DNA of 64,000 nucleotides from Clostridia bacterium (GTDB lineage Bacteria > Bacillota > Clostridia > Christensenellales > UBA1242): NCBI GenBank assembly GCA_017501645.1, contig JAFVWN010000004.1, forward strand, positions 1 to 64,000, given 5' to 3'. Of this stretch, positions 8,385-47,134 are shown piece by piece. Numbering within the stretch: position 1 is the first letter of the stretch; the number at the start of each line of letters is the position of its first letter. The translations under genes and the position numbers were made by a program. The notes under the pieces were generated by a model. That model was given only the letters and a program-made list of their open reading frames with translations, searched no databases and was not told where the DNA came from.

Positions 8385-9302
8385 ATGGAAAAAGTTATTT
8401 TTGATTTAGATATTGGTGTTGATGATGCAATGGCTCTTATTATGGGTATCAATGACCCAGAGGTTGACATAAAGCTTGTTACTACCGTTTTTGGTAATGT
8501 TAGCGTTGAGCAAGCAACTAAAAACGCCTGCTATATTATTGAGCAATGTGCAAAAACAGACATTCCAGTTTTCTTTGGTGCGTCTAAAGGACTTAAGACT
8601 GAGGGTATAAACGCAATGGATGTTCACGGCAGAACTGGACTAGGAACAAAAGTTGTTGCAGAGAATGTAAGCAAGTATCCGCTTAACACTTCTTCTTATG
8701 GGGCGGTTGAGGCTATGAGGGATATGATTTTTCGCTATCCTAACGAAATTACAATTTTAAGTGTTGGGCCTGTTACAAACCTTGCTACCCTTTTTGTTAA
8801 GTATCCAGAAGTGAAAGACAAAATCAAGAGAGTGGGTATTGAAGTTGGTTCTGTTGATGGAAAGGGAAGCATAACTCCGTATTCAAGTTTTAATGCTTAC
8901 TGTGACCCTGAAGCTGTTGACATTGTAATCAAAAGCGGAGTTCCTATAACTCTTACAACTAAAGAAATTGGAACATCTGCATTTTTTGATGAAGAACAAA
9001 GAACAAGATTTAAAAATGCTGGAAGGGTTGGGCCACTTTTGTATGACCTATGCGAGGGATACAAGGACAAGCTTCTTGAACCGGGGCATTATGCCGTTCA
9101 CGATACTTGTGTGCTTTTTGCAATTTTGAAAACAGATATATTCACTCGTCAAAATGTGGATATGGTTATAAATACCACTAATGATGAGAAAAGAGGTCAA
9201 ACAAAGTTTAAAAACAATGACAACAGTCACATAACTTTGGTTACTAGTGTTGACAAGAAAAAACTCTTCAAAAAGATGGAAAACAATATAAAATTGAGTT
9301 AA
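8385..9302 (+). CDS. Nucleoside hydrolase (inosine-uridine preferring family)
   Basis: The 305-residue protein carries the calcium-binding N-terminal motif of nucleoside hydrolases as DLDIGVDDAMAL (D7, D9, D13, D14; the usual form is DTDPGxDDA). It also has the ITILSVGPVTNLA strand and a late AVHDTCVLFAI block with the conserved His-Asp. These enzymes cleave the N-glycosidic bond of nucleosides to a base and ribose in salvage. A TATAAT-like hexamer at about 8354 and AGGTTTCT before the ATG are the likely signals. It stands alone between two terminators. Confidence 0.9.
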   Translation: MEKVIFDLDIGVDDAMALIMGINDPEVDIKLVTTVFGNVSVEQATKNACYIIEQCAKTDIPVFFGASKGLKTEGINAMDVHGRTGLGTKVVAENVSKYPLNTSSYGAVEAMRDMIFRYPNEITILSVGPVTNLATLFVKYPEVKDKIKRVGIEVGSVDGKGSITPYSSFNAYCDPEAVDIVIKSGVPITLTTKEIGTSAFFDEEQRTRFKNAGRVGPLLYDLCEGYKDKLLEPGHYAVHDTCVLFAILKTDIFTRQNVDMVINTTNDEKRGQTKFKNNDNSHITLVTSVDKKKLFKKMENNIKLS

Positions 9303-9324
9303 AACTCAAAAATAGGTGTTTTTT

Positions 9325-9358
9325 ATGCGATAAAGTAGGGGCTTTGTCGCATATTTTT
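9325..9358 (+). terminator. Terminator after the nucleoside hydrolase gene
   Basis: ATGCGATAAAG at 9325-9335 pairs with CTTTGTCGCAT at 9342-9352 (one G-T pair), with loop TAGGGG, followed by ATTTTTAT. Confidence 0.8.
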
Positions 9359-9370
9359 ATGCTAAAACTA

Positions 9371-9399
9371 TTGTAAAATTTTTAGGGCTATGTTATAAT
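9371..9399 (+). promoter_or_regulatory. Sigma-A promoter of the giant coiled-coil protein gene
   Basis: TTGTAA and TATAAT are spaced by exactly 17 bp, ending 54 bp upstream of the ATG at 9454. A GGAGG lies just before the start. Confidence 0.75.
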
Positions 9400-9453
9400 A
9401 TGTGCATACATATTATGGACCCGAACTCAAAAAATGACGGAGGATAAAGAATA

Positions 9454-12400
9454 ATGCCAGAAGAAAATCAATCAAGAACAGTCCCATTACTTGACAATAT
9501 TAGGGACTACACATTGCTTTACAATTATGTAAACGCATTTAGACAGATTCAACTTGAGTCTGGAGATATTTATGAGAGGATAAGTGAAAACGAGCGTAAA
9601 AACGGTGTGACTTTTAACCCTAAAAGTTTGACCGTTAAGGGTATGGTTGAGCTTATTCATAAGTATCCAAGCATTACTAACATTGGTACTGCAAATCAAA
9701 AGAAGTTGGCTCAACTTCATAATTATGCAACAAGCATTAGTAGTGACTTCCCAACAACCGACCAAATTGACGCAGAAAAAGCAAGATATGAGTCTGTTAT
9801 GCATCAAAGGGATATTGACACTGCACAAGCTGTTGAAGCTCGAGCTCAAGAACTTAAAGGCCTAAAGAAGAACCACAGAAAGAGTGGAAGAAAACTTGTG
9901 GGTGCTGTTGTTCTTGGTGTTCTTGGTGCTGTGTTGACTGCTGGTATCGTTGGTGCTTTTGGTACTGCAGTGTTTGGATTAATTACAAACGCTGTTACTC
10001 TTGGTGCTGGTATCACTAGTGGGCTTGCTGTTGGTGGTCTTGTTGTTGGTATCGTTGGTGGAAGACTTCTATTCAATGGATTATCTAAGATGTTCTCTAA
10101 AATAAGAAGCAGATTTGGTAAGGCTAGAGAGGACTGGAGAGGTACAAGAGCTAAACTAAGAGATGCTAAGAAAGAATACAGAAAAGAAAAAGCACAAAGA
10201 AGACTTGCTGAAAGAGCAATTGCATTTGATAATGCTTATAGCAGAGAGCCATATCCAGGAAGAAACTTGTTCAATGCTAATGAGTATAATAATGCAAGAA
10301 ATCTCAATATGCAAGAAATGCCTCATATTGAGCCAACTCCAGAAGAGCAAGCAGAGCTTGAAGAGACTAGAAGAAGAATTGCTGAGCAAGAAGCTAGAAG
10401 AAATGCTGGAAGACAAAGACAACAAGGAAATGATCAAAACCTTGAAAACAGTGAAGAAGAATTAACAGGAGAAGAACCAGAAGAACAACAAACTGGCGAA
10501 CAAAACGAAAGCGAGAGCGAAGGCGGTCAACAAGGTGGTGAGCAACCTGGAAGAGAAACTGAAGCTGAACCTATTGTTGTTGGTGGCGGAAGATCAAGAG
10601 GTCCAGTTCTTGATGAAGAGATTGTTGAAGAACTTGATGATGATGAAGAGGAAGAATTAAACAGAGTTCTTAACAACGAAACAAACGAAGAAAATAACGA
10701 GACAAACGAAGAAAACAACGAAGAAAATGCAACTGAAGTTGCTCCTGTTTATAATTTTGCAAATATGGATACTGATGATATTTATAGTGATATCCAAGAT
10801 ATGCAAAAAGAGGACGAAAGACTTGGAAGAAGACTTTCTAGAACAAAAAGTGCAGACAAACAAGAGCAGTTTACTAACGCTCGTAAAGAAAATGAAGAAA
10901 AACTTAATGCTTATAAAGAAGAACTTGGCAAGAGAACAATAACTCCAAAAATTGCAAGTGCTCTTTATGAAGACCAAGAAGTTACTCCTAAAGATCTTGA
11001 GAGTATTGAAGAAGACAAAGAAGAAGCTCCTAGAATATCTTCTAGAGAAATTAGAAGAATTATGAAAGAAGCTGAGGCAAACGCCCAAGCACTTGACAAT
11101 GAACTTAAAACAAATAATAGACTCACTGTCAATGAATACAGAGAAAGAGTTCAAAAGAGAAATGCTTATAACTATTTCGCAGCAGAAATGGAAAATGAAC
11201 TTTCTGCAAGAACAGCTTTTGAAGAGTTTAAGTATGGCGAGCAAGGAATGGCTCTTAGAAGAGCTCTTGACGGAGCTGGCAATGAGTACTTAGAAGCTCT
11301 AATTGGTGATTTTGCAAGAAATATGCCTAAAGTTGCAAGAGCTATGGAGGCTAATGGTACTGGCGGTACTGTTTGGGGCGCTGGTGAAAGACTTGATGAC
11401 CAAGCTATTGAATATATCACTAAACTTGGTGAGTCTAATTTTGGTCAACAGCTTGTTGCTGAGCTTCTTGAAGAAAGAAAATTGACTGCAGGTGTTGATA
11501 CAGCTAAGGTATTTGAATTAAGAAATGAAGCATTACAAGAATACAATTCACTAAAAGGTGCTCCAAATGTTGACTCTATTGAGCTTGCTAAAGCAGAAAG
11601 TGAATTTAGAATGTATGATAGAGAGCTTGATACAAGAGACCTTGAAGCAGATAAAGACACAATTGCTACTGGTATGCAAGATAAAGGTAACTGGGATAGA
11701 GATGCTTATGCTTCTCAAGTTACTGCAGTTAATGAAGAAATCAACAAAAAAGAAACTGTTGGTGTTCTTGAGACTGAGGTTGAAGACACTGTAATCACTC
11801 TTCGTAAGAAGAAAGAAAGAGCAGAGACTATGCTCAAAGAGGTTCAAGAAAAAACAACTATACAAACTCCTGATGGCGGAAAAGTTGAAACTGTTCCTAA
11901 TGGTGTTAAGTTTAGCGAATATGAAGGTGCTTTAGTAGTTAGAGAAACTATTATGCAAAATATACAATCTCTTGATAGTCAAATTGCAGAGATTGAAAAT
12001 GCAAACAGAGAAGAAATTGAAAGAAGAATTGCAGAAGCTAAGAAAATTCAAGTTGCATTGATGGTAAATCCTGATGCTTTAACTTGGGTTGGAGTTCCTG
12101 CTCCTGAAGTAGCAATGGGAAGAGCCTTTAAAGAAGAAAAGGCTATTACACCAGAACAAGCGAAAGCTTATCTTGATGAGTTTGAAAAAACCGGCATTCT
12201 TCCTGAGTTTGACGGACTTGATGCAGACCCTGAATTTAGGGCTTTGGCTGAACAAATAAGAATTAACTCATTTGGCAGAACTCCATCTGCTGATGGTGTT
12301 AATGTTAAAAAGTCTTTGGAAGAACTTGGCAAAGAACAAGAAATTGAAGAAAGCAGAGTTGAGCTTGAAAACATAAAAACAAAAGTCGCTGGCTGGAGAG

Positions 12401-42776: not shown

Positions 42777-44162
42777 ATGAAAAAGAAGATTTTAAGAGTG
42801 ATATTCACTGTTATTCCTGTTGTTTGTTTGGTTGCGTTGTATTTGTTTGTGGCCATTCCTATGCGTGAAAGAAAAGATAGGGATGATGGTTCTAATAGTG
42901 AAGTCTATCAAGGTGCATATTTTGCTTCTGCAACAGAGAAAAGTCCTGCTTATGGGCAAAGTAAAAGTTATAAGGGTGGGGCGATATTTATTGAACCAAA
43001 TGTAACTTACAATATGAACGGAGGTTCTATCACTGGAACTAATAAAAAGTTTGGCGGTGCTGTTTATATAAGCTCTGGTGCAACTTTTAATATGAAAGGT
43101 GGCTCAATTACTGGCTGTAACGGAATGTATGGTGGAGCTATTTATGTTGAAACTGGTGGAACTTTGGTTATTGAAGCAGGCACACTTACTGGGAACACTG
43201 CAAACTATGGACCGTCTATTTATGCGGAACAAGGAGCAACTGTAGACATTTCTCCAAATGCAAATATTAGTAGCAATGATATTTTGTATGAGGTAATTCT
43301 AGATATTTCAAATGAAGAGATAGAGATTGGTGCTGACCTTACCACAAGATATATAACTATGGGGTCATATCCTCAAACTGCTGTTGATGAAACAATGCAG
43401 AATACATTAACGGCTTGGGCAAGCTCTCAAACGCCGAGTCATTTTGATGGTGTTGAAATGTACACTTACACAGATGGAAATGTATATGTTCTTGGTCAAT
43501 GCTGTGGTGGATTTACTTTCTCTAGTGGCTATTATGCGGCTGATGGTGAATATTTATGGTTTAAAATAGAACCAATAAAGTGGTGGATAATCAACTATGA
43601 TGGATATCAAGACGGAATGACAGAGTTTTGGCTCTTAAGTAGAAGTGCGTTAACAACCTATGATATGTATGGAGATTCTATGAATTGGGTTAATTGTGGC
43701 ATTCGAGATTGGCTTAATGGTAGTTTTTATGAAAATGCGTTCACTGAAGCAGAAAGAAATCTTATTAACTTAACCAATGTTCAAAACAATGATGGTTATA
43801 GTTATAATTACACTGATGGTTCTGGACAAGCAACGAACGACTATTTGTTCTTACTTTCATTAGACGAAGTTCAGCCATCAAGTGGAACTTCTGCTCACGA
43901 ATCAATTTTTGTAAGAGGGAATTATTCTTTTGATTTTGAGTTATATCCAACAGATTATGCAAACTTAATGCTTAATGGTTTTAGTCTAGGACACGCAATG
44001 TTAAGAACCGGTGTTTACTATGATTATGAAGACAATGCAATTCAATCATATTATTTATGGGATAGTGATTTTGCATTTATAACTGATGCTCCATATAATA
44101 CAGGTTCAAATAGAGATGATTTGACTTATATTCGCCCTAGTATGATTATAAGTCTGTCGTAA
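42777..44162 (+). CDS. Secreted protein with GGAxY repeats and a DUF6273 domain
   Basis: The 461-residue protein has an N-terminal signal or anchor helix (ILRVIFTVIPVVCLVALYLFVAI). Residues ~65-165 hold four GGAxY repeats (KGGAIFIEPN, FGGAVYISSGATFNM, YGGAIYVETGGT) close to those of the LRR protein at 21862. The C-terminal half is DUF6273-like: ITMGSYPQTAVDE (~200), WFKIEPIKWWII, and CGIRDWLNGSFYENAFTEAERNLI (~305-330), with a final TYIRPSMIISLS. DUF6273 is common in gut Firmicutes surface proteins and has no established activity. A GAGGAG is 13 bases before the ATG, longer than ideal. Confidence 0.85.
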   Translation: MKKKILRVIFTVIPVVCLVALYLFVAIPMRERKDRDDGSNSEVYQGAYFASATEKSPAYGQSKSYKGGAIFIEPNVTYNMNGGSITGTNKKFGGAVYISSGATFNMKGGSITGCNGMYGGAIYVETGGTLVIEAGTLTGNTANYGPSIYAEQGATVDISPNANISSNDILYEVILDISNEEIEIGADLTTRYITMGSYPQTAVDETMQNTLTAWASSQTPSHFDGVEMYTYTDGNVYVLGQCCGGFTFSSGYYAADGEYLWFKIEPIKWWIINYDGYQDGMTEFWLLSRSALTTYDMYGDSMNWVNCGIRDWLNGSFYENAFTEAERNLINLTNVQNNDGYSYNYTDGSGQATNDYLFLLSLDEVQPSSGTSAHESIFVRGNYSFDFELYPTDYANLMLNGFSLGHAMLRTGVYYDYEDNAIQSYYLWDSDFAFITDAPYNTGSNRDDLTYIRPSMIISLS

Positions 44163-45114: not shown

Positions 45115-45277
45115 AAAATTTGCTCCTTTTGATTCGAGTATACACCAGACTTTTAAAAGTTGAGCTGAAGTGTGACATAAAATGTAAAAGTTTTTTCAAA
45201 AAAAATAAAAAAGGCATAAAAATATTTTGAAAAAGAAAAAATAAGTGGTAAACTATATGTGTAAGAGGAACAAAAAA

Positions 45278-47134
45278 TTGAAACGAAAAACTAAAGCAAT
45301 ATTAAGTATAGTGTTTGCAATTTTAAGTGTGACAAGTTTATGTTTGTCACTCCTTTTACCAAGCACAAAAGCAGAGCGAGAAAAAGCAATGCAGACAATT
45401 GTTTCTACTGCAACAACAGGAACAGGTGCAAGCACTGCAGATGCGAGCAAAAAGGGTGGAGGAATATTCCTTGAGCCAGACTCACAGTTTACAATGGCTG
45501 GCGGAACAATTTCAGGACACACACGAGATTATGGCGGAGCTGTTTATGTGTCAAACGGTGCAATATTCACAATGACAGGAGGAACAATTTCTTCAAACGG
45601 AGCCACTTTTGGTGGTGCAGTCTATGTTGAGGCTGGTGGAGAGTTTTATTTTCGAGGTGGAACAATTACTCTAAATAATGCCTCGTTTGGTGGAGCAATA
45701 TATATTGAATCTGGTGCAAAATGCTATATTTCAGGAGGAACAATCTCATCAAATACAGGAACAGCAGAGCCTGCAATTTACTATGAAGATGGTGCAACTT
45801 TACAAATAACAGCAGGAACAATTGGACCAAATGAAGTTTCAGGTACTCAAACATTAGAAACTCCAACTTGTACATTGAATGAGGATATAATTACAATAGG
45901 TGAAGTTAGTGGAGCTCTTGGATATAGGGTCGATATAAAAGATGGAACTAATAAAAGCGTATTAAGTTTTGTAACCCAAGAAACACAAATAGACCTAAGT
46001 AACTATGATATAGGAGGAGGAACATTTAATGTTGAAGTAACGGCTATTGGAACTTTTGCTACTTGTAGTGATAAAGCCGTTGTAGAATATTACATTTATA
46101 AAGAAATAACCTTAACAATATGGATTTTAAAGTGGGATTTATCAGGAGAACCAGAAGGTTATGAAAACTTACCGCAAGAACAAGGTGGCATATACCAGAT
46201 TTATTACACTCTTCCTGGGGATATGGAAGAAGAAACTTGTAGTATTTCTGTAAGTTCTGGTTCAGGTGTGGAAATGTCAAATAAATTGTATTTAACGACA
46301 GGAGCGGGAACATCTTGGGCTGAGGTTGTTGAAACATATAAATTAAGACACTATTATGCTCAAGATAGTGGGCACGAGGGTATTTATCCAGCAGGAGAAT
46401 ACTGGAATCAAACAACAGACAACCCTGTATTCACAAAAGATACAGAGATAATATTCTATAAAAAGGTTTGTTTCGACAGCGAAACGCTTGTTGAGTGTTA
46501 TGATGAGAAAAGGAAGAGAAGATACAAGAAGAAACTTAAAGATATTACATACAAAGATAAACTTGTTGTTTGGAATTTCGATAAAGGCTGTTTTGATATA
46601 GCTTCTCCGTTATTTATAACTAAAGAGCAACAAGATAACAGGTATACTGAAGTTACCTTTAGTGATGGTAATGTTGTAAGATATGCAGGTCCAGATGATT
46701 CAAGAAGACACAGAATCCTTAACATAGAGACAGGCAAGTTCGAGTATGTGGGACACGAGGGAACACCTGTTGGAACAAGTACTCTTAATGATAAAGGTGA
46801 AATTGTTAAGGTTGTTAGTATTAAGTTTGTAGATAAGCCAATCAAGTATATGAACATTATAACCAAATATCATATCAACTGTTTTGCTGGCGGAATAATA
46901 GCCTCTGACAGAATGGCAAATATTTATCCAATCAAAGACTTGAAATATGTCAAGGATAACAGACCATTGGCAACATACGAAGATTATCCAGAGATTGAGA
47001 AAGAGTATTTTGATGGATTAAGACTAGCAGAACAACCAAGCAACATAAGAAGAGCAGAGAACGATGTTACATATTACAACAATTACACAGAGTTTGTAAC
47101 AAAGCTTAAAGAAATGTCAAAACCAAGAGATTAA
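45278..47134 (+). CDS. Secreted GGAxY-repeat protein carrying a Hint (intein-like) domain
   Basis: TTG 45278 is preferred (AAGAGG nine bases upstream); ATG 45257 or GTG 45245 lack ribosome sites and would overlap a likely -10 sequence. A signal peptide is followed by five GGAxY beta-helix repeats (residues ~45-185, YGGAVYVSNGAIFTMTGGT). A beta-sandwich-like region and a Hint domain from about C398 to 545 come next. The Hint starts CFDSETLVECYD with YKDKLVVWNFDKG, has VTFSDGNVVRYAG then RRHRIL, and closes with YMNIITKYHINCFAGGIIASD. The final HN of splicing inteins is SD here, and ~75 more residues follow. This fits an autocleaving or non-splicing Hint. It shares its N-terminal module with the proteins at 21862 and 42777. 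Confidence 0.82.
   Translation: MKRKTKAILSIVFAILSVTSLCLSLLLPSTKAEREKAMQTIVSTATTGTGASTADASKKGGGIFLEPDSQFTMAGGTISGHTRDYGGAVYVSNGAIFTMTGGTISSNGATFGGAVYVEAGGEFYFRGGTITLNNASFGGAIYIESGAKCYISGGTISSNTGTAEPAIYYEDGATLQITAGTIGPNEVSGTQTLETPTCTLNEDIITIGEVSGALGYRVDIKDGTNKSVLSFVTQETQIDLSNYDIGGGTFNVEVTAIGTFATCSDKAVVEYYIYKEITLTIWILKWDLSGEPEGYENLPQEQGGIYQIYYTLPGDMEEETCSISVSSGSGVEMSNKLYLTTGAGTSWAEVVETYKLRHYYAQDSGHEGIYPAGEYWNQTTDNPVFTKDTEIIFYKKVCFDSETLVECYDEKRKRRYKKKLKDITYKDKLVVWNFDKGCFDIASPLFITKEQQDNRYTEVTFSDGNVVRYAGPDDSRRHRILNIETGKFEYVGHEGTPVGTSTLNDKGEIVKVVSIKFVDKPIKYMNIITKYHINCFAGGIIASDRMANIYPIKDLKYVKDNRPLATYEDYPEIEKEYFDGLRLAEQPSNIRRAENDVTYYNNYTEFVTKLKEMSKPRD

Follow-up and report, generated by a model that had tools for sequence, protein, structure and literature searches.

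A Hint domain lacking the terminal His-Asn, followed by a conserved tail, caps a predicted surface protein of a Clostridia bacterium: a candidate N-terminal self-processing module

The window, that is, the whole stretch of DNA that was analyzed, comprises 64,000 nucleotides from a Clostridia bacterium, and an intact open reading frame (ORF) on its forward strand, at 45245-47134, encodes a protein of 629 amino acids from a GTG start, with an ATG start also possible at 45257. Its parts follow in the order export signal, β-helix repeats, linker domains, Hint domain and tail. The hydrophobic export signal (KAILSIVFAILSVTSLCLSLLLPSTKA, 45296-45373, read by eye) lies behind a basic N-terminus, and the GGAxY repeats at 45461-45895 form a right-handed β-helix region that scored over the cut-off of PF13229 (E = 1e-6). 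The Hint domain, assigned from its predicted fold and profile homology, occupies 46469-46909 (residues 1-147, counted from its Cys1), and the remaining 74 residues (46910-47131) make up a conserved, mostly helical C-terminal tail that is homologous across the order. Together, Hint and tail span 221 residues from C409 to the end of the ORF (46469-47131). From the Cys the protein reads CFDSETLV ... NIITKYHINCFAGGIIASDRM and then continues to the stop codon at 47132-47134. The start and the final block quoted in the preliminary description were found again in their places when the sequence was re-read, and the further 75 or so residues that it reported after Ser-Asp were counted as 74. Its numbering of the Cys as C398 was in error: the Cys codon begins at 46469 and encodes residue 409 counted from the GTG at 45245, or residue 405 from the ATG at 45257. 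Just upstream, at 42777-44162, lies a gene for a 461-residue exported protein with GGAxY-type repeats and a DUF6273 C-terminus (PF19789, E = 3e-16), and hence like repeats carry two different C-termini in the two neighboring proteins.

Searched alone against Pfam, NCBIfam and PHROGs, the window protein gave no Hint match, in Pfam not even at E = 1, and phmmer of the Hint domain alone against the PDB returned chance matches only. Relatives within the same bacterial family shared 38-45% identity (E down to 1e-46), and more distant ones matched PF01079, PT-HINT, Hint_2 and Hom_end_hint. PF01079 was matched at E = 0.01 or better by seven of the 12 relatives tested; one relative (L023) passed the cut-offs of both PF01079 and PT-HINT, and the others were sub-threshold. 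A profile of 12 homologues from which the window clade had been left out picked the window protein as its sole match among 400 window ORFs (E = 9.5e-22) and reported none of 1000 shuffled versions of the Hint domain, so that the resemblance goes beyond chance. With the window sequence included, the profile matched the solved structures of the BIL domains 6y75 (E = 2e-12) and 2lwy (E = 1e-4) and of hedgehog (E = 0.01). In the profile searches that the preliminary description had suggested, homology to Hint domains thus came through relatives and not with the window protein alone. The miss at the Pfam cut-offs is a matter of the library and weighs less than fold and homology.

An AlphaFold model of the 221-residue Hint and tail adopted the horseshoe-shaped Hint fold with high confidence (pLDDT 91.1, pTM 0.87). 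It superimposed on the BIL domain 6y75 with a Z score of 16.5 (E = 4e-8, rmsd 2.0 over 137 residues) and on hedgehog 1at0 with a Z score of 14.8, the structure matches spanning about residues 1-147 (1-149) of the model. The model of a sister-clade member likewise showed the Hint fold (pLDDT 96, Z = 18.0 to 1at0). Because intein structures align end to end with residues 1-147, Ser146-Asp147 (46904-46909) takes the place of the intein His-Asn, as the homologues also indicate. The segment is surely a Hint domain, and the earlier proposal that an exported protein carries such a domain, devoid of the terminal HN, is upheld by the profile, the fold, the Ser-Asp and the export signal. As a separate observation, the AXH domain of ataxin-1 (4j2j, 2m41) gave weak matches in several searches (E = 0.001-0.6) to the Hint relatives L017, L024, L025 and L026, over their first 30-70 residues; AXH and Hint are possibly connected by a distant structural link.

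Of 297 genomes of the order, 47 contained a match to a window-clade profile. Among 391 genomes spread over the class, 21 matched the Hint-plus-tail profile at E = 0.001, and 14 of these, the window's genome included, had strong, near-full-length matches. In a phylum-wide spread of genomes, those outside the class gave weak partial matches only. Six other genomes of the window's genus had no match, and searches of phages, viral contigs and plasmids returned no relative. The gene tree mixes bacterial families, which suggests horizontal spread. Genomes carry one to three copies, in some cases as tandem paralogues. Hint and tail nearly always form the C-terminal end of the protein, with 207-241 residues from Cys1 to the stop; one set of homologues with an extra repeat has 309-329. 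The host proteins range from about 270 to 4500 residues and bear very different passengers. In the open-access papers searched, this clostridial combination of Hint and tail was not described. Short Hint domains on other proteins within the window's bacterial family form a clade of their own (L020, L023, L032, L033). These are almost tail-less, with 150-153 residues to the stop and ends such as FAAGILGGDR. One short ORF (L131:5315-5749, G164:C55) consists of a Hint end and tail only, behind a new hydrophobic N-terminus, in a genome that also has a full copy (L130).

The tail is a candidate adduct-recognition-like region. Searched alone against Pfam and PHROGs it matched nothing beyond noise and no toxin family, and these searches gave no support to an early idea that it was akin to the phage XkdX repeat. 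No small partner gene recurred downstream of the Hint gene in the neighborhoods compared; two kinds of gene did recur as neighbors, for an ABC transporter and for a reverse transcriptase, each in a different clade. In each of the seven relatives retrieved from genome contigs, which belong to two genera, the reverse transcriptase gene adjoined that of the Hint surface protein (L002:6842-8068, L003:3030-4268, L004:6886-8247 and L006:4781-6001, and also L005, L007 and L008); there is none in the window's genome. These enzymes have 406-453 residues and a YVDD or YGDD motif, and one is Drt3a-like (E = 3e-10). Close homologues are also present where Hint is absent, in L125 and L128 beside another giant surface gene. 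A diversity-generating retroelement at the Hint genes was considered and rejected, since self-comparison of ten loci gave no convincing template and variable pair. In L004, intergenic repeats of ~61 and ~78 nt (8917-9601), which lie about 700 bases away from the reverse transcriptase gene, include a hairpin-like unit, GTGGCTTGCTCAC...GTGAGCAAACCAC, and possibly represent a structured RNA.

We examined the catalytic positions in 80 distinct Hint sequences that were readable from position 1 and came from searches of the window's family and order. The nucleophile of the N-S acyl shift, Cys1 (46469-46471), is Cys in 79 of them and Ser in the other. Homologues thus keep the Cys as well as the closing block, and the model has the horseshoe fold; these were the two points on which the preliminary description had let its reading be refuted, and neither refutes it. 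The block-B catalytic His81 (46709-46711) is kept in all 80, and in a 36-sequence alignment Cys1, Phe64 and His81 were the only invariant columns. Conservation is weaker for the Thr of TxxH, whose column holds Ile or Val in 71 of the 80 homologues and Ser in the window copy (SRRH). None of the 80 has Asn where inteins carry their terminal Asn, which excludes intein-type C-terminal cleavage and splicing for the whole family. The residue preceding Cys1 is Gly, Ser, Ala or Thr in 55 of 81 sequences, against 412 of 1134 residues over positions -2 to -15; these sequences are related, and hence no formal p-value attaches to the counts. The prevalence of a small residue at -1 in the family suggests that the scissile bond is constrained. 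The first step, the N-S acyl shift, thus appears from these patterns to be kept in the family. Such conservation reflects selection on the family and does not show that the window copy works. That copy has Val at -1, Thr51 (46619-46621) in the column of hedgehog Asp303 (D46; Asp in 42 and Glu in three of the 80 homologues), and a five-residue insertion, DDSRR (46694-46708), just before the catalytic His. Almost no homologue has this insertion, and the model is of lower confidence around it. Because of these three features, activity is less sure for the window copy; for the family it is likely.

Taken together, these results lead us to a reading to which we assign a probability of about two in three: the last 221 residues would form an autoprocessing module of the hedgehog or B-type BIL sort on an exported surface protein, its thioester being resolved from outside. 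After export, Cys1 would attack the Val408-Cys409 bond with the assistance of the block-B His, giving a thioester. Lacking the His-Asn as well as a +1 nucleophile, the module would undergo neither C-terminal cleavage nor splicing. Water would resolve the thioester with release of the β-helix passenger; a small nucleophile acting via the tail would instead leave the passenger covalently marked or anchored at its new C-terminus. Provided that the module is active, hydrolysis seems the somewhat more probable outcome, and adduct transfer a plausible one at a little under even chances. The reaction, where it happens and how the thioester is resolved are inferred; the release or cross-linking of the N-terminal part that was put forward in the preliminary description is likewise drawn by analogy from hedgehog and BIL domains. 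Chemistry confined to the N-terminal side, an acyl shift followed by hydrolysis or adduct transfer, fits best. For an active module speak the fold, the homology, the two key residues kept, the small residue at -1, the C-terminal placement and the loss of HN. Against it stand the replacement of the TxxH Thr in most homologues and, in the window copy, the Val at -1, the DDSRR insertion and Thr51.

The adduct branch of this explanation, taken alone, would be an anchoring device of the hedgehog Hog type, in which the tail binds an envelope lipid, sugar or amine and Hint transfers the surface protein onto it without a sortase. The module has the layout of hedgehog HhC and nearly its size, and it is a constant C-terminal unit on passengers that differ widely, from about 270 to 4500 residues. 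In hedgehog, D303 activates cholesterol and is described as peculiar to hedgehog and absent from inteins; H329A is dead, T326A has greatly reduced activity, and D303A still cleaves with DTT, its cholesteroylation being incomplete (PMC9163320). In the hmmsearch alignment to 1at0, the Asp of ILFID in the family falls on that of hedgehog ILFMD, without a gap up to the catalytic His. Asp or Glu occupies the D303 column, where Hog domains have Asp or His, in 45 of the 80 relatives and in 38 of the 39 members of one clade, but the window clade lacks the Asp. An Asp at this column, one residue in part of the family, may be taken as a lead, not proof. Anchoring is also made attractive in that no sortase was found in the window's own genome and that sortase is rare in the family (7 of 197 genomes), but this lack is a lineage trait and carries no pointer to Hint. 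The adduct, its ligand and a pocket are putative only, and one to three copies per genome are few for a general anchoring route. On balance we consider such anchoring possible but on the unlikely side. The wider proposal that in gut Clostridia a self-cut C-terminal Hint and tail joins a surface protein to an envelope or host molecule, replacing sortase anchoring, is distinctly unlikely.

It may also be that the active site of the window copy is spoiled and the domain now serves as a structural cap or binding domain. The Val at -1, the insertion before His81, the Ser for the TxxH Thr and the Thr at the D303 column would all suit this idea, as would the lack of a match in six other genomes of the genus. 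The retention of Cys1, Phe64 and His81, a frame that is open to its end and a confidently predicted fold argue against degeneration, which we regard as rather doubtful. Release of the tail as a C-terminal toxin, in a pretoxin-HINT arrangement, is highly improbable. In polymorphic toxins, HINT domains do stand directly ahead of the C-terminal toxin domain (PMC3482391), and PT-HINT was over its cut-off in one distant tail-less relative, L023. The tail is short, homologous across the order and not variable; its conservation and its lack of a match to any toxin family make a toxin unlikely, and no small partner gene recurs after the Hint gene in the neighborhoods compared. Finally, chance resemblance of a β-rich protein to Hint motifs, for which the empty Pfam result might speak, is refuted by the clade-excluded profile, the shuffled sequences and the Z score of 16.5, and can practically be dismissed.

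Self-processing of the N-terminal type is the preferred reading. The module escaped standard family libraries, yet in many gut-type Clostridia it sits at the end of surface proteins that are often very large. An active module would mean that these proteins are cut or conjugated after export, which would alter their placement on the cell, their expression and their use as binding proteins. Should the tail select the nucleophile, bacteria would have their own counterpart of hedgehog lipidation, from which new thioester-based ligation tools might be derived. The sharing of this unit by large surface proteins of related bacteria suggests an unstudied route of cutting or attachment after export.

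Several known systems resemble the module in part. As in pretoxin-HINT proteins (PF07591), the Hint domain lies near the C-terminus of large exported proteins; unlike in them, no variable toxin stands behind it and no immunity-type partner gene recurs. A-type BILs and BUBL BIL2 (6y75, 6tmm, 2lwy) are the closest solved structures by profile and near the top by fold, but A-type BILs end in His-Asn and can cut at the C-terminus, of which the window Hint is incapable. The C-terminal Hint-like domains of bacterial secreted proteins (Buerglin 2008; Dassa and Pietrokovski, PMC2362128) are a kindred system, set apart by their descriptions, which place them in myxobacteria and gammaproteobacteria behind another N-terminal part (PMC2362128). 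B-type BILs have no block G and cleave without splicing (PMC4031507). The window Hint has Cys1, the block-B His and block F, and it too lacks block G. Like B-type BILs it is bacterial, sits on variable proteins and may be capable of N-terminal-type chemistry alone; it differs in the nearly constant conserved tail, the fixed C-terminal place and the mostly lost TxxH Thr, the likeness being judged by motifs. Compared with the hedgehog Hog domain (PF01079), the module is bacterial, its TxxH Thr is mostly replaced, the Asp303 equivalent is present in part of the family and not in the window, the tail has no sequence match to any known family, and the window protein falls below the Pfam cut-off. 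As in Hog, the protein is exported, the domain starts with Cys1-Phe, keeps the block-B His and has no terminal HN. As in HhC, Hint is followed by a conserved, mostly helical tail to a total of about 210-240 residues, and the window and sister-clade models match the hedgehog fold with Z scores of 14.8-18.0 to 1at0.
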